Assembly: GCF_000421225.1 (NCBI RefSeq)
Contig: NZ_ATWL01000014.1
Span: 1 to 64,000 of the forward strand
Direction of reading: 5' to 3'
DNA: 64,000 nt
Source: Ruania albidiflava DSM 18029
GTDB lineage: Bacteria > Actinomycetota > Actinomycetes > Actinomycetales > Beutenbergiaceae
Shown here: positions 42,265 to 63,825 of the stretch, piece after piece
Layout: every line of letters begins with the position of its first letter
Position numbering within the stretch: the stretch's first letter is position 1
Program-made: the position numbers and the translations under genes
Notes under the pieces: generated by a model
The model's input: the letters and a program-made list of their open reading frames with translations, nothing else
What the model was told of the DNA's origin: nothing
Database searches by the model: none

Positions 42265-43539
42265 TCAACGGCACCACTCGGCGCAATCGACCACGGTATG
42301 GCCGAAGAGTGCCGGAGATCGCCCACCGTCGGTGGCCGGGTAGAGGTGCACCTCGGACACGTTCCCGAAGATCGGTCCGGCTGGTCGTCCGGCGCTCAGG
42401 TCGGCGGCGAGCCGGGCGCTACCGTCCACCCAACGCTCGCCGAGCAGCTCGTCGTGCGCCCGGACGAAGCGCTCGTTGCCGCCGCTGGGGGCCCGGGTGA
42501 TCTCGCCGAGGACGATGCCCCGGGAGGTGTCGTACAGGTCCACGCGGCAGAACGGCAGACCGACTGCCCGGGAGAGATGCTCGGCCACGTCGACCATCCT
42601 CGGCAGCGAGGCCGGCACGGGGATGGACGGATCATGCTTGCGGCCGACCGCGACTTCTCCGTAGTCGGCGCCGTGCTCGTCGACGAACTTCAGCCGGATG
42701 GTGGACGCGTCACCGTGCCGTGCCACGTGACGGACCAGGATGTGCCCGACCTGGCCGTAGAACATGTAGCACTTGACGTCGTTGGGTATCGGTCCGCCGT
42801 CGGCGTCCAGGAGCATCTCTTCGGCGAAGTAGGGTGCACGGGCCCTTCGCCCCAGCGCGCGGATCCGGTCGCGCATCTCCTGCTCGCTGTACGTCCCCTT
42901 GCCGCCGACTACGTCGTAGCGGCCATCCGAGCTCCGCTGCAGGGGAAAGACAGCGACGGACCCTGCACCGCCGTCCGCCTTGAGCACGAAGGTGTCCGGC
43001 AGGCCGGAGAGGTCGATCGAGTCGACGTCTGGCCAGACCCGATAGACCTCTGGGGTGCTGATTCCATGGCTCGCGGCAAGCTCCATGGTTCGGAGCTTGT
43101 ACGGGAGCTGGAGCGCAGCGGATCGTGTCGTCAGCCCGAGCCGGTGCTCAGCGCGGAACACGCGAACGTGCTGGCGCAGGGACTGCCGGTACGAGGCCCG
43201 CTCCAGGTCGTCGAGGCGGGCATTCTCCGCCTGTTCCGCGGCAAGCTTGGTCTCCAGCTCACCGATCCGCTGCCGCAGCCGATCGTTCGCTGGCGCCGAC
43301 GAGGCGGCAGACTCGGCCGCCGCCTGCCGGCGGTCGAGCGACCGCACGTGTCGGGCAAGCCTGTGCTGGCGAGCACGAACATCGAGGATCATCAGCGAAC
43401 CGAGGCCGGTGAGCATGCTGAGACCGACAACGGCGACACGTGACCACCCCAGCACCGCGGCCGCTCCGGTCGCCAGCATCAGGAAGAGCACCGCTCCTGC
43501 GGCGGCACGTTGACGGGTCGTCCCTCCAGACAGGAGCAT
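42265..43539 (-). CDS. membrane-anchored TupA-like ATP-grasp protein
   Basis: A 424-residue protein. Two membrane helices (about 12-55) are followed by M-I-L-D-V-R-A-R-Q and a coiled coil (about 60-110), then an ATP-grasp domain (about 150-415) with F-V-L-K-A-D-G-G-A-G-S-V, F-C-R-V-D-L-Y-D-T and L-G-E-I-T-R-A-P, in the pattern of TupA-like ATP-grasp proteins. ATP-grasp enzymes join a carboxylate to an amine or thiol through an acyl phosphate. TupA is linked to teichuronopeptide synthesis in Bacillus, so attachment of an amino acid to a uronic acid polymer is the inference. A paralogue without the helices is at 57328. Confidence 0.75.
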   Translation of the reverse strand: MLLSGGTTRQRAAAGAVLFLMLATGAAAVLGWSRVAVVGLSMLTGLGSLMILDVRARQHRLARHVRSLDRRQAAAESAASSAPANDRLRQRIGELETKLAAEQAENARLDDLERASYRQSLRQHVRVFRAEHRLGLTTRSAALQLPYKLRTMELAASHGISTPEVYRVWPDVDSIDLSGLPDTFVLKADGGAGSVAVFPLQRSSDGRYDVVGGKGTYSEQEMRDRIRALGRRARAPYFAEEMLLDADGGPIPNDVKCYMFYGQVGHILVRHVARHGDASTIRLKFVDEHGADYGEVAVGRKHDPSIPVPASLPRMVDVAEHLSRAVGLPFCRVDLYDTSRGIVLGEITRAPSGGNERFVRAHDELLGERWVDGSARLAADLSAGRPAGPIFGNVSEVHLYPATDGGRSPALFGHTVVDCAEWCR

Positions 43540-43591
43540 CGGTCCACCTCACCCAGGGTCGCGACAGTCCGTGGTGCGTCCTGTCCGAGGT

Positions 43592-43674
43592 CAGGGTACG
43601 GGAAGTGCACGCGCCAGGTGCAGGACAGCCGGACGGGGCGTTCTGCACGGGAGGCTGTCCGCTCGGATACCCTG
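43592..43674. promoter_or_regulatory. candidate divergent promoter pair
   Basis: CAGGGTA at 43592-43598 and TACCCTG at 43668-43674 are reverse complements, so each strand shows a TACCCT (TANNNT, the actinobacterial -10 form) about 40 to 55 bases before its gene. No matching -35 boxes were found. The symmetry may also be an operator for both genes. Confidence 0.3.
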
Positions 43675-43710
43675 GGCTCGCTGCGCCACAGACAAAGGAG
43701 TGCTCAGCCC

Positions 43711-46700
43711 ATGGCCAACGAGGGGAACCCGGCGCGTCTCGCTCCGAGTGTCGCTGCCGCATACCTCGACGCTGCCGAGGAGTGCGGTGGGCCGACGGTC
43801 GTGGAGCGAACGGCGCTGCGTACCCGTTCGCGCCAGGCGCGGGACCTGCTCGCGTACGCAGCGGCACCGGGCGGCCTCAGCTGTGCCGAGCTGCTGGCAG
43901 CCGTCCGGGCCGCCCAGCGTGGGACCGCGCGCGCGGCACCACCGCTGGACCCGAGGTGGGCGATGAGCCTGGTCCGGGTCATCGGTATGCAGAATCTCGA
44001 CGAGGACGATCTCCACGACGCAGTCAGTCTGCTCCTGGAGCTACGCCGTCAGCATGGTCGACGACTGCTCAGCACGTCGGTCCAAGAGACCATCGTCGCT
44101 CGCCTGTGGGAGGCCGGAGAGCACCAGCGGCTCCGCTCCTGGCTGCCCCAGCTGCCCGGGTTGAGAGCCGAACAGCGACGCTTCCTGCAAGCGGACCTGA
44201 TGAACCCGTTCCGGACGTCCGATACGCCACCACGACGCGCAGTCGGGCACAGGTGGCAGAGCCTGGTCGACGAGATCTTCGCCGATCATGGGATAGAGGC
44301 TGTCCGCGTTCGCCCTAGCGAGCCGACCGCGTTCGACGGGCTCACCTGCGCGGTCGAGGACGATCCGATCGAGGACGGACCCCTGGTCACGGTCATCCTC
44401 ACCGTCTTCCGGCCAGGTCCTGCACTCCTCACCGCGGTCCGCTCGATCTGCGCCCAGACCTGGCGCAACCTGGAGATCCTGGTCGTCAACGACGCCTCAC
44501 CGGGCCCGGTCGACGTGCTGGACGCGTGCGCCGGACTGGACGAGCGCGTCCGGGTGCATCGGATGGACCGGAACGAAGGCACCTACGTGGCACGAAACGC
44601 CGCGCTCGACCTCGCTCGCGGTGAGCTGGTCACCTTCCAGGATGCTGACGACTGGTCGCACCCGAGACGGATCGAGCTGCAGGCGAAAGCTCTGCTGGCG
44701 AGCCCCTGGACGCCCGCAACCCGCAGCTATTGCCTGCGGGTGAGCGAAGACCTTGTCTTCCAACGCCCGGGCTACGAGACGAGCCAGGAGAACGCTTCCT
44801 CGCTGATGTTCCGCCGCGAGCAGGTGCTGACCACGATCGGATACTTCGACCGCGCACGAAAGAGTGCGGACACCGAGTTCCGCCGAAGGCTGGAGATCGC
44901 GTTCGGTGCAGCGGTCCGAGACGTCCGTGCACCGTTGGCCATGGTGCGGATGGCCCAGGGTTCTCTCTCCCGCGCTGACTTCACCCCTGGTTGGCACCAT
45001 GTGTCCCGCTACGTCTACCGCGGCGCCTACGAGCGATGGCACGCCCACCTCGCCGGTGGCGCCGACCCGTATCTACCACGGTTCCAGGAGCGTCGGCGGT
45101 TCGCGGTGCCACAACGCTTCCAAGTGGACCAAGACGTCCTTTCTCTCCACCCGCCGCACTATGACCTGGTCCTGCTGTGCGACTGGCGCTTCTTGACCGA
45201 ACGCCGTCGACGCCTGCTCGAGGAGGCGACAGCACTGGGTGGAGCTGGGTATCGCGTCGGTCTGGCCTACCGGGAGTCCTACGTCGACATGTCCCGTCGC
45301 CGCCTCCCGTTGCGTCCAGAGGTGCTGGACGCCATCAACGAGGGCACCGTGGACTTTGTCGCACTCGATCAGGTCTCAACGGTGTCCACGCTCGTGGTGG
45401 GGTCGCCGGACGTGCTGCAGTTCGCGCCGGCCCAGCCGAGCACCTTGACCGTCCACCAGGTCGTCGTGCTGGCCGGCGGTCCTCCGGATGGCAGCGACCC
45501 CCGCGCCGCGTGCTACGACCCTGCCTGGTGCGACGCGACAGTCACGACCACGTTCCGGGTCGAGGCGCAGTGGTTGGTCGCTGCTGCGCTGAGTTCGACG
45601 CTGGTCGGTGCGATACCGCCCGAGCGGGTGCACGATGAGGGGCCGGACGGCACCACCGCACTCGCCGACCTCCTGGGGCCACCGCAGCCGCAGGCGGGAC
45701 CGGAACGGCGGCTCGCGGCTTCGACGCAGCCGCTGGATCGACCGCGCCCCTGGGTGCCCGCCCCCGCCCCACGCGCGGTCGTGATCGTTTCCGAGCCAGC
45801 CGCGCCACGCCTGCTGGATACCCTCAGGCGGATGCGTGATGAGCCCCAGCTGCTTGGTGTTCGCGTCACGGTGGTGCACTCCGACTGCATCCAGGACCTG
45901 GCCGACGAGGCGCAGGTCCATCACCCAGGGCTGACTTTCGTATCGGTCGCTGAGGAGAGCAGGTCGATCCTTGCGATCGCTGCGTGCGAGCAGCTGGTGC
46001 AGGCTGACGAGGCTCTCGTGACGGTAGCCACGTTGCCCAAGGTCCGCGACGTGCACTCCTGGGCGCGAAGGTTGCGTCAGGAGTGCGAACGCGTCTTGAC
46101 GGCGGACCTGCACGGACCATTTCCGCTGCTCGTGCGGACCCGGCACACACCTCTGCCGGTGGTGGCGTCCTACCTTGAGCTGGTCCTGGCACGGAACGAG
46201 CACGATGGTCGGCTCCAGGACTATCTGGCTGGGCTTGCCTTGCTCGCTGGTGTTCCGCGGGTCGAAGCGATAGACCCTGGTGCTGGAGAGCTCCTCGTGT
46301 CGGTGTGGCTGGCGGCGAAGTTCTCCCCGACGATGCCGCAGCCGGGCTGGCGTTACCGACTCGTCCTCGCCCGCGCCGGACGTACTCAGGCCGCCACCGT
46401 GGGCCAGGCGCTCGATGCACGTGTGGACACTCGAGGCCAGCGCGTGTGGGAGGCCCTCAGGTTCACCCTCCCGCTCGAGCGGGACGACGGCAACTTCACC
46501 CTGCTGCTCGAGGTCGACACGCAGGAGGAAGAGCTGCGCGTGCGGCGACGGCTCCGACCCGCCAAGGGCCTGCTCCTAGCAGCGCGAACCGCCATGACGC
46601 CCTCGGCCGGACCTCCGGGGGAGGTCGTGCGCTACCTGCCGCACACCACCGGGGGCACAGGCGCGACCATCCTCACCATGATGACCGGCCGAGGCTGGCG

Positions 46701-47946: not shown

Positions 47947-47961
47947 TCGGCTGGGACCGAC

Positions 47962-48738
47962 TCAGATACGGCGCTTGAGGGTGGAGCGCACCGTCGCCTG
48001 ACCGAGCGCCCAGACCGACCGGGGCAGCGAGAGGCGCTCGACCCGCCGGTAGAGCTCCCAGTTGTACTTCACCAGGGAGAGTCGGCTCGATCCGGACAGC
48101 GACCCGGCTCGTTGCTGCCGGTACAGCGCCAGCGGTTCGTCCAGGCCCCGGGCCACTGTGCCGTCGCGCAGCAGGGAGAGCCACAGCCCGTAGTCCTGGC
48201 GCTTGCGCAGGTCCGGCATGAATCGCTTGCCGAGCGCGGTCACCGAGTACATCCCGGTCAGGCAGCCGATGTAGTTCTGCCGCAGCAGGGTGGCATAGGT
48301 GAGCTCCGCGCGAGCCGGCACCACCCGACCGTTCGGCACGAAGTCGCGGGCATCACCGGTGAAGTCGGCGGCCACCTTGTAGTAGCTGGTGAACGTCACC
48401 GGCGCATGCTGCTCGGTGGCGAAGGCCAGCTGCTTGGTGAGCTTGTCCGCCAGCCACAGGTCGTCAGCGTCCAGGAAGGCCACGTACGCACCTCGGGCAC
48501 GTCTGATCGCCGCGTTGCGGGCACCGGCGGCACCCAGCTGACGGTCGCTCCGCTCCGGACGGATCCGCGAGTCCAACCGGGCCGCATCTGTGAGCATCGC
48601 CCACGTCTCGTCCGTCGAGCCGTCGTCGGTGACCAGCAGCTCCCAGTCGGGGTGCGACTGGGCCTGCACAGACCGGATCGACGATGCCAGCGTGCCCGCA
48701 GCATCGTGGGCCGGCATCACTACCGAGACCAGCGGCAT
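47962..48738 (-). CDS. GT2 glycosyltransferase
   Basis: A 258-residue GT-A glycosyltransferase with P-L-V-S-V-V-M-P-A-H-D-A, L-L-V-T-D-D-G-S-T-D-E-T-W, and the metal-binding D-A-D-D near residue 88. Its length is normal for a single-domain GT2, and it lacks membrane segments. Start ATG 48738 follows GGGAGG; about 140 codons open upstream are not protein-like. It is convergent with the large TagF-like gene and divergent from the epimerase gene. Confidence 0.85.
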   Translation of the reverse strand: MPLVSVVMPAHDAAGTLASSIRSVQAQSHPDWELLVTDDGSTDETWAMLTDAARLDSRIRPERSDRQLGAAGARNAAIRRARGAYVAFLDADDLWLADKLTKQLAFATEQHAPVTFTSYYKVAADFTGDARDFVPNGRVVPARAELTYATLLRQNYIGCLTGMYSVTALGKRFMPDLRKRQDYGLWLSLLRDGTVARGLDEPLALYRQQRAGSLSGSSRLSLVKYNWELYRRVERLSLPRSVWALGQATVRSTLKRRI

Positions 48739-48853
48739 CAGACCTCCCTCACACGACCGGCCCCGGCGCGGCGGGGCTGCTCCACCGTACCCTCGCTGCA
48801 GAGCGGTACCGTGACCACCGGCGGCACGCGGCACGGACGTGGAGGAGATGCTG

Positions 48854-49897
48854 GTGACGAACACTCTGGCCCGGGGGGACCGGGTGCTGGTGCTGGGCAG
48901 CTCAGGATTCGTGGGCTCCCACCTCGCCCCGGTGTTCGACCGGCTCGGAGTGGAGCTGGTCCGCTTCGACCTGCACCCGGACCCGCGCGGTGAGCACCCC
49001 ACCCAGATCGGGGACGTGCGGGACGTGGATGCTCTGATCGGGGCCATGACCGGCTGCACGGCCGTGCTCAACCTGGCTGCCGCGCACCATGACTTCGGCA
49101 TCGGCGCGGCCACGTTCGAGTCCGTCAACGTCGGTGGTGCGAGGGCCGTCTGTGCCGCCATGGACCATCACGGCCTCACCAACCTGTGCTTCTACTCCTC
49201 CGTCGCCGTCTACGGTGAGCACCCCACCCCTCCGGACGAGCACACCCCACCTGAGCCGGTCAACGACTACGGACGCACCAAGCTGGCCGCCGAAGCGGTC
49301 TACCGGGAGTGGGAGGCTGGTGGTGACCGGCGGGCGCTCATCATGCGCCCCGCGGTCGTGTTCGGGCCCCGGAACTTCGCCAACCTGTACAAGCTGATCC
49401 GGCAGGTCGACCGGCGCCGATTCTTCCCCGTGGGGCCCGGCAGCAACCGGAAGAGCATGTGCTACGTGACCAACCTGGTCGAGGCGATCGGCTACCTGTG
49501 GACCGCACCCTCCCGGGTCGGCCAGGGGGAACCGGAGGTCTACAACTATGTCGACAAGCCCGACCTGACCTCTCGGGAGACCGTCTCCCTGGTCTATCGC
49601 GGCCTCGGTCGCCGCGAGCCCCCGGCCCGGCTACCGCTCGGACCGGTGCTGCTGGCGGCGAAGCCGTTCGACCTGGTCGGCCGCGCCACCGGCAAGGACC
49701 TGCCGATCACCTCCGCCCGGGTGCACAAGCTGTCCGAGGCGGAGACGGCGTTCGCTGCCGACCGGATCCGGCAGGTGGGCTTCACCCCCTCGGTCACGCT
49801 GCCAGAGGGGATCGCCACGATGGTGGACTGGTACCTGCAGGAAGGCCGCCACACCGCTCCGGTGGTACACCTTCCACCGCAGGACGTGCAACGGTAA
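48854..49897 (+). CDS. NAD-dependent nucleotide-sugar epimerase/dehydratase
   Basis: A 347-residue extended short-chain dehydrogenase. The NAD-binding motif is G-S-S-G-F-V-G-S-H-L, and the catalytic pair is Y-G-R-T-K, with a serine in F-Y-S-S-V-A-V-Y-G. Members epimerise, dehydrate or reduce nucleotide-linked sugars. GTG 48854 is chosen because GGAGGAG is seven bases away; ATG 48848 is too close. It may provide a donor sugar for the polymer. The precise reaction is open. Confidence 0.82.
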   Translation: MTNTLARGDRVLVLGSSGFVGSHLAPVFDRLGVELVRFDLHPDPRGEHPTQIGDVRDVDALIGAMTGCTAVLNLAAAHHDFGIGAATFESVNVGGARAVCAAMDHHGLTNLCFYSSVAVYGEHPTPPDEHTPPEPVNDYGRTKLAAEAVYREWEAGGDRRALIMRPAVVFGPRNFANLYKLIRQVDRRRFFPVGPGSNRKSMCYVTNLVEAIGYLWTAPSRVGQGEPEVYNYVDKPDLTSRETVSLVYRGLGRREPPARLPLGPVLLAAKPFDLVGRATGKDLPITSARVHKLSEAETAFAADRIRQVGFTPSVTLPEGIATMVDWYLQEGRHTAPVVHLPPQDVQR

Positions 49898-51107: not shown

Positions 51108-54100
51108 ATGACCACCCGCCAGGCCGATCTGCGGGTGCTCGTGGTCGGCAGGGTCGACTCCCCGTACCTACTGCAGACCCTGGCGGCGTTGGCCGAGCAG
51201 ACCCGCCCGGTGGGCCAGGTGCTGCTCGGGGCGCTCGGCCAGGAGAGGGACGCGGGCACCGCCGCATGGGACGAGCTGGTCGCCGCTGCAGGTCTGGACC
51301 CAGACCGCGTGCGCCTGGTGCCTGTGCCGGGTGCACCGACGTTCGGCGCGGCAGCACGGCGTGTGCTGCGCACCGTCGAGGACAGCGCAGACTCCGCCGC
51401 CGAGGGCACGGGCCGGCGCTGGCTGTGGTTGCTGCACGATGACTCAGCACCTGCCCCCGATGCGCTCGAGCACCTCCTGACCGCCGTGGACGTGAGCAAC
51501 TCGATCTCCGTGGCCGGTGCGAAGCAGGTCGAGTGGGACGATCCAGACCGCCTGATCTCGGTGGGCGTGCGGGCGACCCGGTGGGGCCGCCGCTTCACCG
51601 GTATCGAGGACGGCGAGATCGACCAGGGGCAGCATGACGGCACCGATGACGTGCTCGCTGTCGGCACGGCCGGGATGCTCGTCGAGCTGGACCTGTGGCG
51701 CCGGCTGGGCGGGCCGGACCCGGTCCTCGGTCCGTTCGAGGACGGTCGGGACCTGAGCGAGCGGGCCCGGCTGGCTGGCCACCGGGTCGTGGTCGTGCCG
51801 CGTGCGGTGGTCCGCCACGCCCGCGCCGGCTACCGCGGCTGGCGTGAGGAACCGGGCACCCCGTCCGACACGCGTCGTTCTTTCCGCGCTCGTCGGGAGG
51901 CCGTGCTGCACCTGCGGCTCACCTCGGCCCGCGCCGTGGTGGTGCCGTTCCTGGCGTTGCTGGCTCTCCTCACCGCACCAGTGCGTGCTCTGTGGCGGGT
52001 GAGCACCAAGGAGCTCGGCCTGGCCGTGGCAGAGCTCGTCGCACCGTTGGTGGTGCTGTCCCACCCACGTGCCATCGCCCGCTCCCGGAACCGGGCCCGG
52101 CGCACCCGAGAGCTGCCACGTCGCAGACTCCGCCCGTTGCAGGCCAGCTGGGGCGAAGTGGCACGGCTACGCCGGGACCGGCGGATGCAGGCGGCCGCGG
52201 CACGCCGGGCGGCCCGCACCCCGAGCGAGCTGGAGATGGCAGAACGTGCGGCAGTCGCGCGCCGGCGCCGGCTCACCCTGGGGGCCGTGCTCCTCGTCGC
52301 GGCCGTGCTCAGCGTGCTCACCGTGGTCCCGACCGCCTTCTCCGGGGACCTCATCGGTGGTGCCTTGCTCCCGGTCGACGCCAGCTTCGCTGAACTGTGG
52401 CGCGCCGCCACCTCCTCGTGGATCACCGCCGGGGACGGGTATGCCGGACCGCCGGACCCGTTCCTGCTGGTGCTCACCGCACTCTCCGGGCTGACCGGCG
52501 GGCCGCTCGGTGTGCCCGTAGGTGTGACCGTGTCCCTCCTGCTCAGCGTGGCGATGCCCCTGGCGGCACTGACCGCCTGGTTCGCCGCCGGGGCCGCGAC
52601 TCGATCGGTCCTGCTGCGGGCCTGGGCGTCCCTCGCCTGGGCGCTGGGGCCGGCACTGCTGCTCGGCCTCGGTGCTGGCCGGCTCGGTGCAGTGGTCGCG
52701 CACGTGCTGCTGCCGCTGGTGCTGCTCGGCGTCGTGCGCAGCCTGGGCCTGGACCGGCGGGACGTCGTGGTCTCCGGCATGGTGGGCGCCCAGCGCCTGC
52801 CGCAGCGCACCTCCCGCCGGGCGGGCAAGTCCGCTCGAGAAGTCAAGCGGGCGCGGCTGGCAGCACTCGCCCGGGTCGCCCGGCGCGAGCCCGAGAAGCA
52901 GGAGGGGGTGCGTACCGATCCCGGAGCCGAGCCGGAGCCCGGTGACGAGCCGGAGACCACCTCAGCGACAGACTCGCAGGAGAAGACCGCCGGGGCGGGA
53001 GCAGCACCAGAACGCGAGACGCCGACCGCTGCCACGGAGGCGGACCAGGAGGCCACCGGTGCGGGCGAGGCGACGGCGGCCCAACGGTCCGCAACCGCAA
53101 CCTCGGCCAAGGTGAGGGACACGACCAAGGGCAAGACGGCGTCGTCGGGGATGGACTGGACCGGGATGACTCCGATCCCCTCCAACACGGCCACTCCCTA
53201 CGAGCCCGGTGAGGATGCAGACAGCCCTCGGGCCACAGTGGTCTCCCAGGTCTCCCGGGCCGGCTCCCTCGGCGCCGCCGCTGCCGCTGGGCTGGCACTG
53301 GCCGTGGTGGTCAGCGGTGCTCCCGTGCTCCTCGGCGCGAGCCTGCTCGCCGTGCTCCTCCTCGCCCTGGCACTCGGCCGCCGACGTCACCTGCCCGCCG
53401 GTCGGGCCCGTCTCGTGCTCGTGCTGCTGCCCGCAGTGGTGGCGCTCACCCCGCTGCTCGTGCACGCTGCCGGTACCGACCACGGGTGGCGGGTGCTGTT
53501 CGCCGACCCCGGCGCCCCACTGCCCAGCGACCCCGGCGGCGCATGGTTGCAGCTGCTCGGTTGGCCCGAGGAACCGGCGGCCAGCACGCTGCTCCCGGCC
53601 ACGGTCGCCTCCTGGGCCCCGCTGGCCGGCACGGCGGTGATCCTGCTCGGCGCGGTCGCAGCTCTCCTCCGAGGGGCTGGCCGCGCCCGGAGCGTGCGGA
53701 TCGGTTGGCTGGTGGCGGTCGTCGGCCTGCTCGCCGCCCTCACCAGCACACGGGTCGCGGTCGGCGTCGGTCGCAGCAGCGATGGCACCGACCAGGTGGT
53801 GCACGGCTGGGCCGGACCGGGCACCTCCCTGGTGCTGGCCGGGTTGCTGATGGCGGTGCTGGCCGCTGCCGACGGGCTGCGCGGCACCCTCAGCCACGCC
53901 AACTTCGGCTGGCGGCAGGTGAGCGCCGCCGTGGCCACTGTGGTGGTGCTGCTCACCCTGACCGTCAGCGCTGCCGGACACACCGCACAGGTGCTCGCCG
54001 AGCGGTCCGGCAGCCTGCCGCCCGACCTGGTGAGGATCGGTGCCCGCGGGGTCAGCCCGGTGCCCGCCCTCGGCCTGGAGCTGCAGGGCTCCCAGCAGCA

Positions 54101-54857
54101 GGGGCGGGCGCTGATGCTCACCGGCACCACCGACGGGGTGGCGGCCCAGCTGTGGCGGGGGAACGGTCCGCAGCTGACCGACACGGCTGCGACCGTGCAG
54201 GTGCAGCGTTGGGCTGCGGCCGAGTCGGGGACCCGCGATGCGGCCGACACCTCGTTGTCCGACCTGGTGGCAGGTCTGGTCAGCGGTGCCGGCGACGATG
54301 CTGCCGAGGTGCTCGCCCAGCACGCGGTCGGTGTGGTGATCGTGCCGGGTGAGGACTCTGCCGTGACCGGGACCGCACCGGTGGACACCGCTGCCCGTGC
54401 CGCCATCATCGCCGAGCTGGACGCGGTCCCCGGACTGGACCGGGTCACCGAGAACAGTGCGGGCATCCTCTGGCGGGTGAGCCTGGGGGAGGGGAGCGCT
54501 GACTCGGCGATCGCCCGCATCCAGCTCCGAGCAGGGGACGGCACACTCATCCAGAACGTGCCTGCCTCGCCAGCTCGTCTCGGCGGTCAGATCACCGCCG
54601 AAGGGCGCGATCGCACCGTGGTGCTGGCCGATCGCGCCGACTCCGCCTGGCGCGCCTGGCTCGGCGGTACACCGCTACGCGCCGGTGAGGACGAGTGGCG
54701 TCAGACGTTCCAGGTGCCGGACGGTGCGACCGGAGACCTCGTGCTGCACCACCGACCGCTGTGGATCGGGCCGTGGCGGATCGCCGCTGTGGTGGTCGGT
54801 GTGCTCACGGTGCTGCTTGCCCTGCCGACCCGGCGACGCCGAGGGGAGGATGGCTGA
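51108..54857 (+). CDS. large GT2 multi-pass membrane protein
   Basis: A 1249-residue protein. An N-terminal GT2-like domain (about 1-260) has W-L-W-L-L-H-D-D-S-A-P, with the D-D pair in the metal-binding position. Then come many membrane helices between about 275 and 970, interrupted by a long charged, Glu/Thr/Ala-rich loop (about 590-690), and an extracellular C-terminal domain ending in a last helix (about 1220-1240). This protein family is widespread in actinobacteria beside whiB2. A role in transferring lipid-linked sugars to the outer face or wall is likely but unproven. Its stop overlaps the DUF5719 start. Confidence 0.75.
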   Translation: MTTRQADLRVLVVGRVDSPYLLQTLAALAEQTRPVGQVLLGALGQERDAGTAAWDELVAAAGLDPDRVRLVPVPGAPTFGAAARRVLRTVEDSADSAAEGTGRRWLWLLHDDSAPAPDALEHLLTAVDVSNSISVAGAKQVEWDDPDRLISVGVRATRWGRRFTGIEDGEIDQGQHDGTDDVLAVGTAGMLVELDLWRRLGGPDPVLGPFEDGRDLSERARLAGHRVVVVPRAVVRHARAGYRGWREEPGTPSDTRRSFRARREAVLHLRLTSARAVVVPFLALLALLTAPVRALWRVSTKELGLAVAELVAPLVVLSHPRAIARSRNRARRTRELPRRRLRPLQASWGEVARLRRDRRMQAAAARRAARTPSELEMAERAAVARRRRLTLGAVLLVAAVLSVLTVVPTAFSGDLIGGALLPVDASFAELWRAATSSWITAGDGYAGPPDPFLLVLTALSGLTGGPLGVPVGVTVSLLLSVAMPLAALTAWFAAGAATRSVLLRAWASLAWALGPALLLGLGAGRLGAVVAHVLLPLVLLGVVRSLGLDRRDVVVSGMVGAQRLPQRTSRRAGKSAREVKRARLAALARVARREPEKQEGVRTDPGAEPEPGDEPETTSATDSQEKTAGAGAAPERETPTAATEADQEATGAGEATAAQRSATATSAKVRDTTKGKTASSGMDWTGMTPIPSNTATPYEPGEDADSPRATVVSQVSRAGSLGAAAAAGLALAVVVSGAPVLLGASLLAVLLLALALGRRRHLPAGRARLVLVLLPAVVALTPLLVHAAGTDHGWRVLFADPGAPLPSDPGGAWLQLLGWPEEPAASTLLPATVASWAPLAGTAVILLGAVAALLRGAGRARSVRIGWLVAVVGLLAALTSTRVAVGVGRSSDGTDQVVHGWAGPGTSLVLAGLLMAVLAAADGLRGTLSHANFGWRQVSAAVATVVVLLTLTVSAAGHTAQVLAERSGSLPPDLVRIGARGVSPVPALGLELQGSQQQGRALMLTGTTDGVAAQLWRGNGPQLTDTAATVQVQRWAAAESGTRDAADTSLSDLVAGLVSGAGDDAAEVLAQHAVGVVIVPGEDSAVTGTAPVDTAARAAIIAELDAVPGLDRVTENSAGILWRVSLGEGSADSAIARIQLRAGDGTLIQNVPASPARLGGQITAEGRDRTVVLADRADSAWRAWLGGTPLRAGEDEWRQTFQVPDGATGDLVLHHRPLWIGPWRIAAVVVGVLTVLLALPTRRRRGEDG

Positions 54858-56389
54858 TGGCCAAGACCGGACGGCTCGGCACCCTGCTGCGAGTCCTCAG
54901 CAGCACGGTGACCGGCGTGGGGGTGCTGGCCCTTGCTGGTGCGGGTGTGGCCGCCGGCATGCTCTGGGAAGCACCGGAGTCCAGCACAGTGCAGCTTCCG
55001 GCCGTGCAGGTGGACGCCAGCATGCTCGACCTGGTGTGCCCACCCACGCCCGAGGTGCCCACCGGCGAGGGCGGTGACATCGACTACGACGAGGAGTTCG
55101 GCACCGGTGGTACCGAGGCCCAGGTGAGCAACCGACTGGTCGTCGTGGGCCGCGGTGGGGCTGCCGGAGAGGCCACCGCCGGTCCGGTCGGCTCGGCGAG
55201 CCCGGAGACGGTGCCGGCACACGGAGACGTGCGCCTGTACGACAGCACCGAGAGCTCAGCGCTGCGCCTGACGGCCGAACCGTCCGGGGAGCAGACTGCG
55301 CTCGCTGCCGGGGCGGCGTTGGCCCGCAGCGACGCCGGCGACCTGCGCGGTCTGGCCGCTGGTTCCTGCACACCGCCGGCACCCTCCGCCTGGCTCGTGG
55401 GCGGGCAGACCGAACCAGGTGCCAGCGCGCGGCTCACCCTCGCCAACCCCGGTCCGACGCCGGTGGAGGTGACCGCACAGCTGTGGGGTGCGACCGGCGC
55501 ACTGGAGGAACCGGTCACGGTGCCGGTCCCTGCGAACGACTCCCGGCAGGTGCTGCTCGAGTCGGTCTCGATGGAGCCTCGCCTGGCCGTGCAGGTGCGC
55601 GTGGACGGCGGGGCGGTGGCGGCCAGCCTCCAGGACACCGTGCTCAACGGGCTGGTCCCGGCCGGGACCGCCACCGTCACCCCGACCCTGCCGCCCGCGC
55701 AGGAGCTGCAGATCGGTCCGGTGCCGATCAACAGCAGTGGGACCGCGTCGGTGCGGTTGGTCAACCCCACCGACGAGGTGGCCACAGTGGCGCTGGAGGT
55801 GCTCGGCCCGCAGGGCAGCACGTCGCTGGCCGGTGCCGAGGACCTGGAGATCGACCCGAACACGGTCACCGACGTCAGCCTGGACGGTATCGACACTGGC
55901 TACTCCAGCATCGCGGTGCACTCCGACCAGCCGGTCACCGGCGCTGTGCTCGTCTCCCGCACCGGGCAGGCCGGTGAGCTCGACCCGGACCAACCGGTGG
56001 TGGACCGCGCCTGGCTGCCGGCCACCGGTGCGGCAGAGCACGGGTTGCTGCCGCTCGTCGGGCTGGGGTCGTTGGTGGACCGGGCGGCGCTGTCGGTGAC
56101 CAACCCAGGCGAGGACGAGGTGCAGCTGAGCGTGCGCCCGATCGGTGCCGACGGGCAGGCGGGAGAGCCCACCGAGGTCACCGTGCCTGCGGGGACGACG
56201 GTCCCGGTGGGTGACGACGCCGACCTCGACCTGGCGGACGCTGCCGCAGTGGAGATCACCGGCGGTCCGGTGCTGGCCAGCCTGACGCTGGCCGGGCACG
56301 TCAGTGACGGCAACCTCGTCGGTGTGCTGCCGCTCACGCCGGATGCCGACCGGGACGAGAGCGTGGCTGTTCGCCTCAGCCCCTACTGA
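54857..56389 (+). CDS. DUF5719 extracytoplasmic protein
   Basis: A 510-residue protein with one N-terminal membrane anchor (about 12-35) and a beta-rich extracytoplasmic region built from repeated Ig-like strands (for example P-V-E-V-T-A-Q-L-W-G). It fits DUF5719, which follows the large GT2 gene in actinobacteria. The ATG shares a base with the preceding stop, so the two proteins probably work together outside the membrane. Function unknown. Confidence 0.72.
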   Translation: MAKTGRLGTLLRVLSSTVTGVGVLALAGAGVAAGMLWEAPESSTVQLPAVQVDASMLDLVCPPTPEVPTGEGGDIDYDEEFGTGGTEAQVSNRLVVVGRGGAAGEATAGPVGSASPETVPAHGDVRLYDSTESSALRLTAEPSGEQTALAAGAALARSDAGDLRGLAAGSCTPPAPSAWLVGGQTEPGASARLTLANPGPTPVEVTAQLWGATGALEEPVTVPVPANDSRQVLLESVSMEPRLAVQVRVDGGAVAASLQDTVLNGLVPAGTATVTPTLPPAQELQIGPVPINSSGTASVRLVNPTDEVATVALEVLGPQGSTSLAGAEDLEIDPNTVTDVSLDGIDTGYSSIAVHSDQPVTGAVLVSRTGQAGELDPDQPVVDRAWLPATGAAEHGLLPLVGLGSLVDRAALSVTNPGEDEVQLSVRPIGADGQAGEPTEVTVPAGTTVPVGDDADLDLADAAAVEITGGPVLASLTLAGHVSDGNLVGVLPLTPDADRDESVAVRLSPY

Positions 56390-57327: not shown

Positions 57328-58479
57328 TCAGCACCACCGGCCGCACGGGATCGTGTGCACCGGCCAGTCACGGGGGTTGCTGATCTCGGGCGGAAGGGTG
57401 ACCGCACCGTAGGGGTCGGGCTGCGCGATCGTGCCGAAGAGCGCACCCGACGGCCGCCCTCGGACGAGATCCTGCTCCAGGCGGATCTGGGCTGCCACGA
57501 CGGCTGCCCCCATCTGCCTGTCGTGCCGCCTGCTGTAGAAGTGGTCTCCGCCTGGAGCCCGGGTGATCTCACCGAGCGTCGGCTCGCCAGGTGTGTCGTA
57601 CAGGTCGACCCGGCAGAAGGGCACACCCGCGGCTCGAGAAAGGTGCCGGGCGATGCCTGTCATGTCGTCGAACCCCTGGGGGACAGGCAGATCGTGGTCC
57701 ATCGTGCGGAACCGGTCCGCCTGCCCGAGGTCTTCGCGATCCTCGGTGAGATACCGATAGCGGATCGAGGCGGGGTCACGGTGCGTGCCGACCCGCCGCA
57801 GCATCACCTGGAGTACCTCGCCATAGGCTGTATAGATCTTCACGTCCTCAGGGATCGCACCGGCAGAGGCGTGAACGTCGAGCACCTCTTCTGCGAAGAA
57901 CGGGGGACGGGCCCGCCGCGGCCCGAGCTCGACGAACCGAGCCTTGATCTGCGCGAGCGTGAGGCGTTGCGAGCCATCCAGCGACTCGAAGACTCCACTG
58001 GACGCCCTGCGCAGCAGAAAGACCGAGACCCCGCCGGCCCCGCCGTCGGCCTTGAGTACGAACTCCCCAGGCATCGCAGTCAGGTCGATCTCCTCGACAG
58101 AGCTCCACACCGCCAGTACCTCGGGCGTACGCACGCCGTGCGAGGCTGCCAGGTGATAGTTGCGGAGCTTGTGCGGTATCTGGCTAAAAGGGGTGAGGTA
58201 CTCAGCGTCGACCGTGCGAACGATGCGCTGAGCATTCCGGAGGCTGAGGACCTCGCGACGAAATGAAGGACGTCCCGTGCTGCGCAGAAGCCGCTCCCGG
58301 GTTTCCTGCGCCTGCGCCTGTTCTTGACGAAGCCTCCGGTCCAGCGCCTTGATCTGGGCCGATCGGGATTCGACCTTTCGGGTGAGCCGGTCGATCTGCT
58401 CCCGTTGCCGCTGGATGATCGCATCCCGGCGTGCGATTGCTGGGATCCGAGACCGCAGCCACGTCTTTGCCTTCTGCAC
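57328..58479 (-). CDS. TupA-like ATP-grasp protein (soluble paralogue)
   Basis: A 383-residue ATP-grasp protein. A coiled coil (about 18-70) precedes the conserved part (about 105-375), with F-V-L-K-A-D-G-G-A-G-G-V, F-C-R-V-D-L-Y-D-T and L-G-E-I-T-R-A-P-G-G. It is a paralogue of the protein at 42265 but has no membrane helices. It probably ligates an amino acid or peptide to a carboxyl group of the surface polymer or its precursor. Start GTG 58479 with GGAGAG upstream. It sits as an inverted insert between DUF3499 and manB. Confidence 0.75.
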   Translation of the reverse strand: MQKAKTWLRSRIPAIARRDAIIQRQREQIDRLTRKVESRSAQIKALDRRLRQEQAQAQETRERLLRSTGRPSFRREVLSLRNAQRIVRTVDAEYLTPFSQIPHKLRNYHLAASHGVRTPEVLAVWSSVEEIDLTAMPGEFVLKADGGAGGVSVFLLRRASSGVFESLDGSQRLTLAQIKARFVELGPRRARPPFFAEEVLDVHASAGAIPEDVKIYTAYGEVLQVMLRRVGTHRDPASIRYRYLTEDREDLGQADRFRTMDHDLPVPQGFDDMTGIARHLSRAAGVPFCRVDLYDTPGEPTLGEITRAPGGDHFYSRRHDRQMGAAVVAAQIRLEQDLVRGRPSGALFGTIAQPDPYGAVTLPPEISNPRDWPVHTIPCGRWC

Positions 58480-58549: not shown

Positions 58550-59986
58550 GTGTCTGATCTCGATGCCATCGTGAAGGCGTACGACATCCGAGGCGTGGTG
58601 CCCGAGGAATGGGGCGAGGAAGTCGCCCGTGCGCTTGGTGGTGCGTTCGCGGATGTCGTCGCCACACCCGGCGGTGCCAACAGCATCGCCATCGGGCATG
58701 ACATGCGGGCCTCCTCACCCGGTCTCGTGCAGGCGTTCGCAGAAGGCGCCTGCTGGCGTGGCGTCGACGTCACCCTGATCGGGCTGTGCTCCACCGACGG
58801 TCTCTACTACGCCTCCGGCTCGCTGGACGTGCCCGGGGCGATGTTCACCGCGAGCCACAACCCGGCCCAGTACAACGGCATCAAGATGTGCCACGCCGGC
58901 GCCCGACCAGTCGGCCAGGACAGCGGGCTCGCCGACGTGCAGCGGCTCGCCGCGCAGTACCTGGATGAAGGGATTCCCGCGGCCGGCGACACCGGCACGC
59001 GCACCGAGACCGACCTCCTGGCCGACTACGCCGCGCACCTGCGGGGGCTAGTGCCTCTCGAAGGCATCCGTCCGCTGAAGGTCGTCGTAGACGCAGGCAA
59101 CGGGATGGCCGGTCTGACCGTCCCAGCAGTTCTCGGTACCGAGACCGGGATGCCGGATGTGGGCCTGGAGCTGGTGCCGCTGTATTTCGAGCTCGACGGC
59201 ACGTTCCCCAACCACGAGGCCAACCCGCTCGATCCGGCGAACCTGATGGACCTGCAGACCGCCGTCATCGCCGAGGAGGCCGACCTCGGTCTGGCGTTCG
59301 ACGGCGATGCCGACCGGTGCTTCGTCGTCGACGAGAAGGGGGTCCCGGTCAGCCCCTCCGCCGTGACCGCCCTCGTCGGCCTGCGTGAGCTGTTCAAGGA
59401 GCAGGAGGCCGGACGCCAGGCGACCATCATCCACAACCACATCACCTCCCGCGCCGTGGCCGAGCTGGTAGAAGGGTCCGGCGGACGCGCAGTCCGGACT
59501 CGGGTGGGGCACTCGTTCATCAAGGCGCAGATGGCCGAGAACGAAGCCGTCTTCGGCGGCGAGCACAGTGCGCACTACTACTTCCGCGACTTCTGGTTCG
59601 CGGACACCGGCATGCTCGCGGCCCTGCACGTGCTGCGAGCACTCGGCGAGTCAGCAAGCCGCCTCTCCGAGATCGCCGAGATCTACACCCCGTACTTCGC
59701 CTCCGGGGAGATCAACTCCCGGGTCGCCGACGCACCCGCCGCCCAGGAGCGGGTGCAGCAGGCCTTCGCCGACGACATCGCGGCCGGCACAGTGCAGGTC
59801 GAGGAGTTCGACGGCGTCACCTACAGCCACTGGGACAGCTCACCGCGGTGGTGGTTCAACCTACGCTCCTCCAACACCGAACCGCTGCTGCGCCTGAACG
59901 TGGAGGCGCAGGACGAGGACATCATGACCAAGATCCGCGACGGCGTGCTCGCCCTGGTGCGCGAGGGACAGGAGGTGGAACAGTGA
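58550..59986 (+). CDS. manB: phosphomannomutase/phosphoglucomutase
   Basis: A 478-residue alpha-D-phosphohexomutase that interconverts hexose 6-phosphate and hexose 1-phosphate. The phosphoserine is S102 in T-A-S-H-N-P, the Mg loop is D251-G-D-A-D-R, the sugar-binding loop is G-G-E-H-S-A-H, and the phosphate-binding loop is near the C-terminus in R-S-S-N-T-E-P. GDP-mannose and other donor sugars for the glycosyltransferases depend on this step. GTG 58550 start. It overlaps the small Trm112-like gene by four bases. Confidence 0.9.
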   Translation: MSDLDAIVKAYDIRGVVPEEWGEEVARALGGAFADVVATPGGANSIAIGHDMRASSPGLVQAFAEGACWRGVDVTLIGLCSTDGLYYASGSLDVPGAMFTASHNPAQYNGIKMCHAGARPVGQDSGLADVQRLAAQYLDEGIPAAGDTGTRTETDLLADYAAHLRGLVPLEGIRPLKVVVDAGNGMAGLTVPAVLGTETGMPDVGLELVPLYFELDGTFPNHEANPLDPANLMDLQTAVIAEEADLGLAFDGDADRCFVVDEKGVPVSPSAVTALVGLRELFKEQEAGRQATIIHNHITSRAVAELVEGSGGRAVRTRVGHSFIKAQMAENEAVFGGEHSAHYYFRDFWFADTGMLAALHVLRALGESASRLSEIAEIYTPYFASGEINSRVADAPAAQERVQQAFADDIAAGTVQVEEFDGVTYSHWDSSPRWWFNLRSSNTEPLLRLNVEAQDEDIMTKIRDGVLALVREGQEVEQ

Positions 59987-60183
59987 CGAGCCCGGACAAC
60001 GGCGTCGAACTGTGGCTGCGGCAGATCCTGCGCTGCCCCGTCACCGGCGAGAAGCTGGTCGCAGGCACGGCACCAGACGGGAGTCCGGAGCTGCACTCCA
60101 CCGGAACCGGGCAGGTGCTCGCCTATCCAGTGCGAGACGGCGTCCCGGTGCTGCTTGAGCACGAGGCCCGCCGGGTCCGCTGA
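59983..60183 (+). CDS. Trm112-like small protein
   Basis: A 66-residue protein of the Trm112/YcaR type, with L-R-C-P-V-T-G-E-K-L and Y-P-V-R-D-G-V-P-V-L-L. The second zinc-cysteine pair of eukaryotic Trm112 is absent, as in many bacterial members. It follows manB by a four-base overlap in a conserved actinobacterial order. Its role may be to stabilise a partner enzyme. Confidence 0.78.
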   Translation: MTSPDNGVELWLRQILRCPVTGEKLVAGTAPDGSPELHSTGTGQVLAYPVRDGVPVLLEHEARRVR

Positions 60184-60223
60184 ACACGTGATGCTCGCAC
60201 CCGACCTGGGAGAGGACTGACGT

Positions 60224-61165: not shown

Positions 61166-61259
61166 GTAGGTAGGCACCGCCGTGCAGCCCTCTACGCCTG
61201 CCGATCTCTTGGACTTCGGACAAACACAACCAGGACGACCTTGAGGAGCACGACCCCCG

Positions 61260-62717
61260 ATGCTGACGTTGGAAGCTCTGCTGGAACCGCTTGCTGCTCG
61301 TGTGCCGTACAGCTATGTCGGCGAGCCGAACATCAAGTTTCGGGGGATCGCGCTCCGCGCAACCCGCAAGCTTGCTGGTGGTCAGTTCGTGGTTCTCGTC
61401 GACTCCCACTGGGGAAAGCGTGCCCGGGAGAAGTTCGGCTATCCCGACCGCACGCGTGAGGAGGTGGTCAACGATGCTCACCACCACGGAGCGACAGGGT
61501 TCATCGTGAACGAGCGACTCAGGGATGAGCCCTTCCTCGAAGGCAAGAACTGCTTCTTCGTGAAGAACACCCTCGACTTCGCGTTTCGGCTCGTGGAGAC
61601 AGTACGTGCAGTCACAGCGAAGAAGGCCGTCGCGGTGACTGGGTCTGCCGGCAAGTCCACCACCAAAGCGATGATCACCCACGTGTTGCGCAGCCTGCCC
61701 GATCAGCCTGAGATCTACAGCCCACCGAGCACGGACAACATATTCACGAGCGTTACTTGTCAGCTGAGCAGGATGGACAACTACGACTACTCGGTACTGG
61801 AGGTCGCCGGTTCGGCGTTTCTTCGGTTCCACACGAATTCATTTGCCGTGTCCCCTGACGTCAGCATGGTCACCTCGATCTCCGAAGCCCACCTTGACTA
61901 TCTGGACGATCTCGAAGGAGTAGCACGAAGGAAGGCGCGTCTCTTCGACCGTCCGCCGCCGGGTGGCACAGCAGTGATCAATCTCGATACCGCCTGTGCC
62001 GACCGTCTGGTCACCCACGCCCTGGAGCAGGGCTGTCGGGTGGTCACGTTCGGGGAGACACCGGAGGCGATGATCAGGCTGGTGAGCTACGACCCAGCCT
62101 CGAAGCGAGTCGTCGTCGAAGCCGACGGTACCCGGACTGAGTTCACCGTCGGTGCCGTCGGCAAGCATATGGCGATCAACAGTCTGGCCGTCCTGGCCAC
62201 CCTGCGGGCGCTCGAGGTCCCAGGCTGGCCGGGGGCACTGGAGTCCTTGGCCACCTTCCGGGCGTTGACAGGTCGTGGTGAGACGAGGTCGGTGGCACTA
62301 CCCGGAGGAACGCTGACCCTGGTTGACGAGTCCTACAACGCCAACCCAGCGTCGATGAGGGCGGCACTTGCGGCGTTGGCGGACAGACCAGCGGCAGGCG
62401 GTCGCCGTATCGTGGTCCTCGCGGACATGCTCGAGCTGGGCGCAGGTTCCGCCGATATCCACCGTGACCTGGCCCCGGCCCTCGAGCCGCTCGCAGACGC
62501 ACAGGTGCACTTGGTGGGGGAGAACATGGCTGCACTCTTCGGGGTGGTGCGGGGACGACTTCCTGGTGTACGGCACTGGCAGAGTGTCGAGGCGTTGAGG
62601 TCGACCCTGCTGGCCGGCCTGCAGCCGGGCGACGTCCTGCTGCTCAAGGGGTCCAACGGGATGAAGCTGACGAGCATCGTGAAGGCGCTGCAGCCGACGT
62701 CGGCTGTGACTGGCTGA
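61260..62717 (+). CDS. MurF-like Mur ligase paralogue
   Basis: A 485-residue ATP-dependent ligase with three Mur domains: an N-terminal part (about 1-110), the ATP-binding centre with G128-S-A-G-K-S-T134, and a C-terminal domain with D-E-S-Y-N-A-N-P-A-S-M, the MurF signature. MurF attaches D-Ala-D-Ala to UDP-MurNAc-tripeptide. The N-terminal half diverges, and the gene is among glycosyltransferases and a TagH-like ATPase rather than in a dcw cluster, so it is likely a paralogue acting on another carboxylate, such as a uronic acid or amino acid of the wall polymer. GGAG precedes the ATG. It ends four bases from the convergent glycosyltransferase. Confidence 0.78.
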   Translation: MLTLEALLEPLAARVPYSYVGEPNIKFRGIALRATRKLAGGQFVVLVDSHWGKRAREKFGYPDRTREEVVNDAHHHGATGFIVNERLRDEPFLEGKNCFFVKNTLDFAFRLVETVRAVTAKKAVAVTGSAGKSTTKAMITHVLRSLPDQPEIYSPPSTDNIFTSVTCQLSRMDNYDYSVLEVAGSAFLRFHTNSFAVSPDVSMVTSISEAHLDYLDDLEGVARRKARLFDRPPPGGTAVINLDTACADRLVTHALEQGCRVVTFGETPEAMIRLVSYDPASKRVVVEADGTRTEFTVGAVGKHMAINSLAVLATLRALEVPGWPGALESLATFRALTGRGETRSVALPGGTLTLVDESYNANPASMRAALAALADRPAAGGRRIVVLADMLELGAGSADIHRDLAPALEPLADAQVHLVGENMAALFGVVRGRLPGVRHWQSVEALRSTLLAGLQPGDVLLLKGSNGMKLTSIVKALQPTSAVTG

Positions 62718-62721
62718 CGAG

Positions 62722-63825
62722 TCATCCGGTTGCGTGCTCGAGGGCACGGACGAATGCGCCGGCATCCTGGTACCAGTTCATGTTCGCCGCGACATAGTCG
62801 TAGCCGCTCGTGGCGCACGTCGTGCGGTAGGAATCATCGGCCGCGAGCTTGCGCAGAGCTCGGGCGGCAGCATCGATGTCTCCGAACGGGACGATGGCGC
62901 CACCGCCAGAACTGGTCACCAGGTCTGCCGCGGCCTCGTTAGGAGTGCTGACCACCGGGACACCGTGAGCCAGGTACTCGACCAGCTTCGTGGGCAGTGA
63001 ACGCGTGTAGTTCGGCTCGTCGTGCAGCAGCGCAAGCCCGGCGCACGCACCGCTGAGCATCGTGATCGCCTGGTCATTGGGAACGAATCCGGTCCACGTG
63101 AGGTGGCCCGCGTCGTGCGCGGCGCGCAGCAGCGGTTCCAGTGACGCCTCGGCTGGTCCGATGAGCTGGAATGTCAGCTCTGGTACGGCCTGGGCAAGAG
63201 CTATCATCTCCTCGGCGCCTCGGGCACGGGAGATCTTGCCCAGGTAGACCACGCGATCCTGCCCCGGAGGTCGAGGGCGTCTGCCAGGCACCAGGACCGA
63301 GTTGGGGACTACGGGGTGTTCTCGCCGGAACCGCGCCGCATAGCTGTGCTCCGCCAGCAGCAGGTGGTAGCGGTTCTCGGCGAGACGTTCCGCGAGCCGG
63401 ACAGCCCATGCAAGCACAGGCCGTAGCGCACGCGGTACCCACGACCGCATCGAGAGGGCCGCTGCCGTGTCCTCGTGCACGTCCCAGACGACCGGTGCGA
63501 CACGAGCACCCAAACCGGCGACAGCAAGCAGCAGGTCGGGGTCGTGCAGCAAGATCACGTCCGCGTGCGGCCCGATCCGGCGGACCAAGCCTCGCGCCAT
63601 ACGGACGGCTGTCAACCGTCGCCGCCCCGCAGCGCGGGGAAGGGAGAGGCCGTGGACACCGTCTGGCGGGGTGCGGCCGAACGCCTCGAAGGGGGCGGCA
63701 TACACCACCTGGTGCCCGGCATCGAGCAGTGCGGGGATCTGGCGGTGTCGGATCCGCGCATCCTCCGGATCGTGCACGATCGTCACGACGAGGATACGCA
63801 GCGGGCGTCCCGGCGCCAGCGTCAT
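62722..63825 (-). CDS. GT4-family glycosyltransferase
   Basis: A 367-residue GT-B transferase. The N-terminal half has D-P-E-D-A-R-I-R-H-R, and the donor half (about 185-350) has V-Y-L-G-K-I-S-R-A-R-G and the loop R-S-L-P-T-K-L-V-E-Y-L-A-H-G-V-P-V-V-S-T. Its start overlaps the stop of the TagH-like gene by ATGA, so it is coupled to polymer export and probably finishes or primes the glycan. Acceptor unknown. Confidence 0.85.
   Translation of the reverse strand: MTLAPGRPLRILVVTIVHDPEDARIRHRQIPALLDAGHQVVYAAPFEAFGRTPPDGVHGLSLPRAAGRRRLTAVRMARGLVRRIGPHADVILLHDPDLLLAVAGLGARVAPVVWDVHEDTAAALSMRSWVPRALRPVLAWAVRLAERLAENRYHLLLAEHSYAARFRREHPVVPNSVLVPGRRPRPPGQDRVVYLGKISRARGAEEMIALAQAVPELTFQLIGPAEASLEPLLRAAHDAGHLTWTGFVPNDQAITMLSGACAGLALLHDEPNYTRSLPTKLVEYLAHGVPVVSTPNEAAADLVTSSGGGAIVPFGDIDAAARALRKLAADDSYRTTCATSGYDYVAANMNWYQDAGAFVRALEHATG

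Follow-up and report, generated by a model that had tools for sequence, protein, structure and literature searches.

A 64,000-nucleotide stretch of the genome of Ruania albidiflava DSM 18029 (contig C14, positions 1-64000; the window) carries two TupA-like ATP-grasp ligases, a MurF-like ligase, a TagF-type polymerase, a nucleotide-sugar dehydrogenase and the end of a TagH-like ATPase gene, which a preliminary description of the window had joined into one possible route to a wall polymer decorated with amino acids. Comparison with related genomes revealed that these genes are separable and that most of the relevant genes lie beyond the window, contig C14 extending to 98.5 kb. A conserved core of dehydrogenases, glycosyltransferases (GTs), a sugar epimerase, a phosphomannomutase/phosphoglucomutase (PMM) and a TagGH-type ATP-binding cassette (ABC) exporter was found, by sequence comparison, to receive two modules: module A, comprising TagF-type polymerases and TupA-type ATP-grasp ligases, and module B, a MurF-containing peptide-building cassette. 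We consider it somewhat probable that this is a modular locus for a cell-wall (or capsule) glycopolymer, composed of the core and two independent modules, in which module B would place a peptide on an exported hexosaminuronic polymer.

Distribution of the Two Modules

The genome of R. albidiflava (G000; 4.17 Mb in 60 contigs) was compared with seven other Ruania genomes (G001-G007), and a census of 297 genomes of the order was made alongside a negative control set of 14 genomes; kinship among genomes is ignored in all Fisher p values given here. Genes of low G + C content in G006 and in G182, a genome from another family, were absent from the gene calls and were recovered as plain open reading frames.

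TagF (PF04464) was present in G000, G003, G005 and G007 and absent from G001, G002, G004 and G006. TupA was found in four copies each in G000 and G003, six in G005 and one each in G007 and G001, with none in G002, G004 and G006, and MurF-like or MR_MLE-Mur genes occurred in G000, G001, G006 and G007. At the level of the site, both modules were present in G000 and G007, module B only in G001 and G006, module A only in G003 and G005, and neither in G002 and G004. This distribution gave a Fisher p value of 0.76 for MurF versus TupA/TagF (2/2/2/2) and of 0.014 for TagF versus TupA (4/0/0/4). Judged on gene content, the MurF set and the TupA-TagF set are independent modules at the same site and not one system. 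Outside the genus, the link between TagF and TupA was weak: in the order, TupA (PF14305) occurred in 36 of 297 genomes and TagF (at E 1e-20) in 117, with an overlap of 21 (p = 0.011).

The preliminary description expected the ligase families to co-occur across relatives, which was not borne out at the site, though an overlap exists at genome level, where TupA occurred in four of the five MurF-clade genomes of the order versus 32 of 292 others (p = 0.0008). This overlap must be read with the facts that in G001 ∼238 kb separate TupA from the MurF-like gene and that three of the four genomes belong to one genus; in G292, TupA is on a different contig, contig C8 being too short (21.6 kb) to give a distance. 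The overlap would nevertheless fit a single teichuronopeptide-like polymer made by TupA, MurF and TagF acting jointly, as would the location of all these genes within ∼25 kb and the presence in G007 of a single 27-kb contig bearing TupA, TagF and a Mur fusion. Such joint action is made quite improbable by the independence at the site, by G003 and G005, which keep the TupA/TagF positions without the MurF cassette, and by G001 and G006, which carry the cassette but lack TagF and, at the site, TupA.

Module B is, as gene order indicates, a coherent cassette that moves between genomes. In G292, which belongs to another family, the genes for a UGD2 dehydrogenase (67% identity), a GT4 protein, an AsnB-like protein, a 144-residue protein, a GT-like protein, an ATPgrasp_ST protein, ATP-grasps and a MurF-like protein (44.5%) stand in a row. 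Much of this row is kept in G182, where the Mur protein is divergent and a CapA-type (PGA_cap) protein is present, and part of the cassette was seen in G090, with neither MurF-like nor UGD2 found within the 40 kb fetched. The MurF-like profile matched six of 297 order genomes at E 1e-48, or five once G014, whose match the tree placed among housekeeping copies, is removed. For the ATP-grasp-acylphosphatase profile, 33 of 297 genomes gave a match at E 1e-30, of which six exceeded 250 bits, a limit set after the scores were known; all five MurF-clade genomes, four of them from one genus, were among these six (p = 3e-10). In a phylum sample of 396 genomes, the window genome was the only one to pass E 1e-70 for the MurF-like profile; G001, G007 and G292 pass this value in the order census and hence lie outside that sample. 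A pattern scan of genome contigs, with patterns drawn from the less conserved N-domain, returned one locus, in Ruania rhizosphaerae.

The MurF-like Ligase

The MurF-like ligase of module B (61260..62717, + strand) contains the Mur ligase middle and C-terminal domains and retains the P-loop TGSAGKSTTK and the sequence YNANP (NANP motif). The housekeeping murF of the same genome lies elsewhere (G000:C2:386141) and is 31% identical, which identifies the protein at 61260 as a true paralogue and agrees with its original description. Its score with the NCBIfam murF model TIGR01143 was 211 bits, under the cut-off of 288.6. The N-terminal domain PF01225 was not recognized in it at E 0.001, unlike the housekeeping MurF, which scored 40.8 bits (limit 0.01), and this suggests an acceptor other than UDP-N-acetylmuramic acid.

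In the tree, the MurF-like clade was split from nine housekeeping MurF proteins at 100/100, with long branches flagged, chiefly those of G182 and G006. This separation and the missing PF01225 domain are difficult to reconcile with a cassette that alters the peptides of peptidoglycan itself, for example by a dicarboxylic interpeptide bridge, and makes no secondary polymer. That view draws on the enzyme types present, since Mur ligase, racemase, ATP-grasp and PBP-like proteins are all of peptidoglycan type and interpeptide bridges of the A4 type use ATP-grasp ligases. The cassette is also missing from four of eight Ruania genomes and is tied to exporter type (see below), and we regard an effect on peptidoglycan alone as very improbable.

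The Putative Peptide Cassette beyond the Window

The remainder of module B extends from C14:63.8 to 87.5 kb. A cyanophycin-synthetase-like ATP-grasp (C14:65802-68003) is followed by an AsnB-like synthase (C14:68249-69733), a GT-like protein (C14:70270-72357) that is similar to a section of the GT2 protein at 33565, an ATPgrasp_ST protein (C14:72437-73549) and an Asp/Glu-type racemase (C14:73570-74328) that scored above two NCBIfam cut-offs, those for amino acid racemase and cysteate racemase. Next are a cyanophycin-synthetase-like ATP-grasp with a C-terminal acylphosphatase (C14:74315-76882), two ATP-grasp-like genes below Pfam cut-offs (C14:76872-78041 and C14:78054-78965), a further ATP-grasp (C14:79965-82463), a fusion of an enolase-superfamily racemase to a Mur ligase (MR_MLE-Mur; C14:82517-85435) and a PBP-like hydrolase (C14:85432-86247). 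Between the AsnB-like and GT-like genes lies an unannotated protein of 155 residues (L005:9730-10197), with counterparts at 35-47% identity in G001, G006, G292 and G182 and a doubtful one (26%) in G090.

The ATP-grasp domains of the cassette resemble cyanophycin and N-acetylglutaminylglutamine synthetases in NCBIfam, although the proteins at 65802 and 74315 scored 183 and 202 bits and did not reach the cya_phycin_syn cut-off of 850. Two overviews cover the ATP-grasp family (PMC4431377, PMC2824669). In the MR_MLE domain fused to Mur (G000, G006 and G007), the candidate catalytic residues Lys, Asp, Glu, Asp and Lys are kept, their assignment being by motif. The MR_MLE-Mur protein of G007 (L018:8280-13007, 1575 residues) carries an extra C-terminal ATP-grasp. 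SGGWDSR is kept in the AsnB-like protein and three relatives, none of which begins with Met-Cys at the start picked by the gene caller; there is thus no evident glutaminase site, and the protein may join another amine. A PDB search at E 0.001 gave no match for the AsnB-like protein or ATPgrasp_ST.

The genes beyond the window suit peptide building much better than those of the window by themselves, and the general idea of amide-linked amino acids on a wall polymer is therefore better supported than before: the racemase, racemase-Mur, ATP-grasp and AsnB-like genes just past the window and the covariation of the exporter point in its direction. The specific teichuronopeptide combination of TupA, MurF and TagF gained no such support.

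The Exporter Varies with Module B

The TagH-like ABC ATPase (PF00005; 63822-64697, - strand) was correctly recognized in the preliminary description, although only its C-terminal 179 bp (63822..64000) lie in the window and the gene runs on to 64697. It is followed by a TagG-like ABC-2 permease (C14:64684-65556), which gives the composition of a TagGH exporter.

TagG identity was 76-86% within G000, G001, G006 and G007 and 78-86% within G002, G003 and G005, compared with 54-59% across the groups; for TagH, the values were 78-90% within the set bearing module B, 83-92% within G002, G003 and G005, and 68-72% across the groups. UGD2, GT4, PMM, UGD1 and housekeeping MurF grouped G000 with G003 (and with G007 where compared). 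On these identities, exporter type tracks module B and not the species grouping. G004, whose PMM shares 99% identity with the G006 copy, lacks both modules, and its exporter is distant, TagG being 27-29% identical to those of the cassette bearers. In G000 the exporter and the cassette are neighbours, and the GT4 gene on the exporter's other side did not track the cassette.

The tracking of TagG/TagH type with the cassette bears on whether the cassette merely neighbours wall genes and makes a free peptide: a secondary metabolite, a compatible solute or a storage polyamide like cyanophycin or N-acetylglutaminylglutamine amide (NAGGN). The resemblance of the ATP-grasps to the corresponding synthetases and the patchy distribution of the cassette would suit a free peptide, and AsnB-like partners occur in NAGGN clusters. 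Such a product would leave the exporter type unexplained, as well as the UGD2, GT4 and GT-like genes that accompany the cassette in another family (G292 and G182), and we judge it unlikely.

TupA-like Ligases and TagF-type Polymerases

Within module A, the two TupA-like ATP-grasp amide ligases of the window, TupA_42265 (42265..43491, - strand, its start set by the gene model) and the protein at 57328..58479 (- strand), scored 73.7 and 62 bits with PF14305 (cut-off 25). Scores so far above the curated cut-off, together with the lack of any match in the 14 control genomes, argue that these calls, made earlier from the window, are not due to chance. Across an alignment of 13 TupA rows, Lys171, Glu224, Asp238, Lys240, Arg316, Asp318 and Glu330 are invariant, and their catalytic roles are putative. 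Relatives of TupA_42265 (56-60% identity) adjoin GT2-TagF in G003 and G005, and relatives of the 57328 protein hold the same position in these two genomes, both of which lack the MurF cassette. Hydropathy revealed a hydrophobic N-terminal segment in TupA_42265 and two of three relatives, so these proteins may act at the membrane. A PDB search gave only a marginal TupA match (E 0.001), and a scan of viral contigs gave no TupA relative.

Divergent from TupA_42265 is a fusion of a GT2 glycosyltransferase (PF00535) to a CDP-glycerol-type polymerase (PF04464; 43711..47946, + strand), which upholds the original TagF-like call; the PF04464 domain scored 124.8 bits against a cut-off of 22.1, and the fusion matched the capsule polymerase Cps3D (8qoy) and TagF structures weakly. 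Beyond the window lie a third TupA (C14:88643-89707) and further TagF-type genes of module A (C14:89717-91927 and C14:95262-96872), near the last of which an IS4-type transposase (C14:97346-98533) adjoins a TagF gene at the contig end.

Adjoining the third TupA is a degenerate TupA paralogue (C14:87687-88646; L006:7687-8646) with only a weak DivIC match in Pfam, relatives of which adjoin TupA in G003 and G007. The fourth TupA-like gene of the genome (G000:C9, L007:9519-10625, - strand) is a stronger match, at 122 bits; it adjoins a gene for an unknown protein and lies near RDD-FHA and FHA/FtsK (type VII secretion-like) genes. For the supply of CDP-glycerol to TagF, G000 offers one candidate among its three PF01467 genes, which looks TagD-like by eye and lies away from the locus (G000:C3:375.4 kb). 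The IspD match is weak in G000 (29.9 bits versus 186-199 bits in the seven other Ruania genomes), reflecting an assembly gap or a loss.

What the TupA proteins would attach is predicted differently by two known relatives. In the one TupA-like ligase with described biochemistry among the literature covered, Campylobacter jejuni Cj1438, the TupA-like C-terminal domain amidates glucuronic acid with (S)-serinol phosphate or ethanolamine phosphate, not with amino acids (PMC11800379). It is quite possible, though somewhat less likely than not, that uronic acid receives a small amino alcohol (ethanolamine or serinol) from the TupA proteins of module A, in which case module A would contribute no amino-acid decoration. 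Their likeness to Cj1438 is one of family, and tupA of Bacillus halodurans is tied to a polyglutamate-polyglucuronate polymer, teichuronopeptide (PMC8153356).

Core Genes and Nucleotide-sugar Dehydrogenases

UGD1 (38666..39958, + strand; Pfam, NCBIfam) is a nucleotide-sugar 6-dehydrogenase of the site core. Its earlier assignment as a UDP-sugar 6-dehydrogenase was right as to the nucleotide-sugar dehydrogenase class, whereas in NCBIfam the general NDP-sugar dehydrogenase model (303 bits) was the only one whose cut-off it exceeded; two UDP-N-acetylmannosamine (UDP-ManNAc) dehydrogenase models (267 and 198 bits) ranked ahead of the UDP-glucose models AglM (149 bits) and TuaD (89 bits), with all four scores under the cut-off of the respective model. 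A UGD1-like match was found in six of eight Ruania genomes (36-39% to UGD2), with identities of 81-91% to the copies in five relatives compared. The second dehydrogenase, UGD2, lies beyond the window (C14:86255-87514); its nearest solved structure is 4r16, annotated as a UDP-ManNAcA dehydrogenase, followed by Cap5O. The two dehydrogenases look more UDP-ManNAc-type. In the Ruania genomes, dehydrogenases were found both with and without the ligases.

The core further comprises a GT2 glycosyltransferase (47962..48738, - strand) with relatives in G001, G002, G003, G004 and G006, an NAD-dependent sugar epimerase/dehydratase (48839..49897, + strand) with relatives in G001-G006, the PMM (58550..59986, + strand; Pfam, identity matrix) and a GT4 glycosyltransferase (62722..63825, - strand; Pfam) that adjoins the exporter and has relatives beside the cassette in G292 and G182. 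The core is flanked by a large protein with an N-terminal GT2 domain (51108..54857, + strand; relatives in G001-G006) and a DUF5719 protein (54857..56389, + strand; Pfam).

Elsewhere in the window, positions 8443-13401 hold sugar catabolism genes, namely a 3-hydroxyacyl-type dehydrogenase, a TIM-barrel isomerase, a Dak1-Dak2 fusion, an RpiB-like gene and a triosephosphate isomerase. The RpiB-like gene, at 12147, is 64% identical to RpiB at 31824. A protein of 1300 residues (27853-31755) has three lamin-tail stretches.

Discussion

Families, motifs and modularity of the locus were established by sequence comparison, and a scheme for polymer assembly can be proposed. The dehydrogenases would make an N-acetyl-hexosaminuronic acid nucleotide, and module B would build a short peptide on its uronic carboxylate in the cytoplasm by the acyl-phosphate chemistry of Mur and ATP-grasp enzymes, D-residues being supplied by the Asp/Glu-type racemase and the MR_MLE domains. 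The GTs would then place the decorated unit in a lipid-linked polymer, which TagGH would carry to the wall. Where module A is present, TagF may add polyol-phosphate segments and TupA may put an amine on the uronate, either an amino acid or, as in Campylobacter, an amino alcohol.

Several points weigh against this scheme. Besides the genome-level overlap of TupA with the MurF clade, the sample of eight related genomes is small. The acceptor, hexosaminuronic acid, is putative, the UDP-ManNAc specificity of the dehydrogenases is predicted by similarity alone, and the enzyme chemistry throughout is read from sequence. UGD2 is present without the cassette in G002, G003 and G005 and hence is not cassette-specific. 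The GT-like protein at 70270 scored 22.8 bits, below the Pfam cut-off of 25. Several candidate residues are lost from the MR_MLE domain on the ATP-grasp-acylphosphatase at 74315 and on its two relatives; a second acylphosphatase fusion in G006 (L031:17332-19980) retains them, which rules out a general degeneracy of the racemase-like domain in these fusions. Structures predicted from two-row alignments, with mean confidence scores (pLDDT) of 44.6 for TupA_42265 and 50.1 for the MurF-like protein, were too poor to use. Two readings of the exporter link remain, selection to export a changed polymer and plain co-transfer of neighbours. In G007 the exporter is on a different contig from Mur and TupA, and in the stretches fetched from G292 and G182 nothing near the cassette matched the Ruania TagGH (E 1e-5), so that the link holds at the level of the genus.

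If the scheme holds, the system would work like a maker of teichuronopeptide or of pseudomurein; by the tests made it is a member of neither. With the teichuronopeptide system of B. halodurans C-125 (tupA) it would share a TupA-family ligase and, as predicted for Ruania from its genes, an acidic polymer of the wall that contains both uronic acid and amino acids, but in Ruania TupA is paired with TagF, and the Mur, ATP-grasp and racemase genes occur without TupA at the site in two of four bearers. The C. jejuni HS:2 capsule protein Cj1438 (GT2 plus TupA-like amidoligase) likewise combines a TupA-like ATP-grasp with GT2 and uronic acid for a surface polysaccharide, whereas Ruania has separate polypeptides and a TagF partner. 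TagF/TagGH wall teichoic acid systems have in common the PF04464 polymerase domain, the ABC-2 permease and the ATPase; the TagF domain at 43711, however, is fused to GT2 and distant from solved TagF, and the exporter allele tracks the peptide cassette. With cyanophycin and NAGGN synthetases the ATP-grasp domain type is shared, but the CphA order of ATP-grasp followed by Mur was found in none of the proteins examined, which have acylphosphatase and enolase-superfamily fusions instead.

Archaeal pseudomurein is built with Mur-type (pMur) ligases and an ATP-grasp for its peptide (PMC11915815). The likeness lies in these enzymes and in a peptide on a polymer of N-acetylated aminouronic acid, the latter sugar being only predicted in Ruania, where the ligases are MurF-type, accompanied by racemases and present alongside a separate housekeeping MurF. 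The two Mur proteins scored 23 to 61 bits and did not reach the pMurC, pMurD2 and pMurE cut-offs (550-600). It is a rather doubtful proposition that module B is the bacterial equivalent of pseudomurein synthesis, making a second exported murein-like glycan beside normal peptidoglycan, with D-residue peptides placed on N-acetylated hexosaminuronic acid by dedicated Mur ligases and ATP-grasps, and that actinobacteria exchange it as a cassette that brings its own allele of the exporter.

To our knowledge, peptide-bearing secondary wall polymers have rarely been described, and little is known of their genes apart from those of alkaliphilic Bacillus; a Vibrio polysaccharide decorated with amino acids has reportedly been found. 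A limited reading of literature on the genus, including a Ruaniaceae source (PMC8878594), yielded no Ruania wall-polymer structure and does not establish absence from print. If they assemble peptides on sugars, the racemase-Mur and ATP-grasp-acylphosphatase fusions would be enzymes of unusual architecture. The locus supplies candidate genes, and each module is naturally present in some related strains and missing from others, for example in the contrast of R. rhizosphaerae, with the cassette, and G004, without it, which are close by PMM (99%), so that wall chemistry can test the proposal directly.

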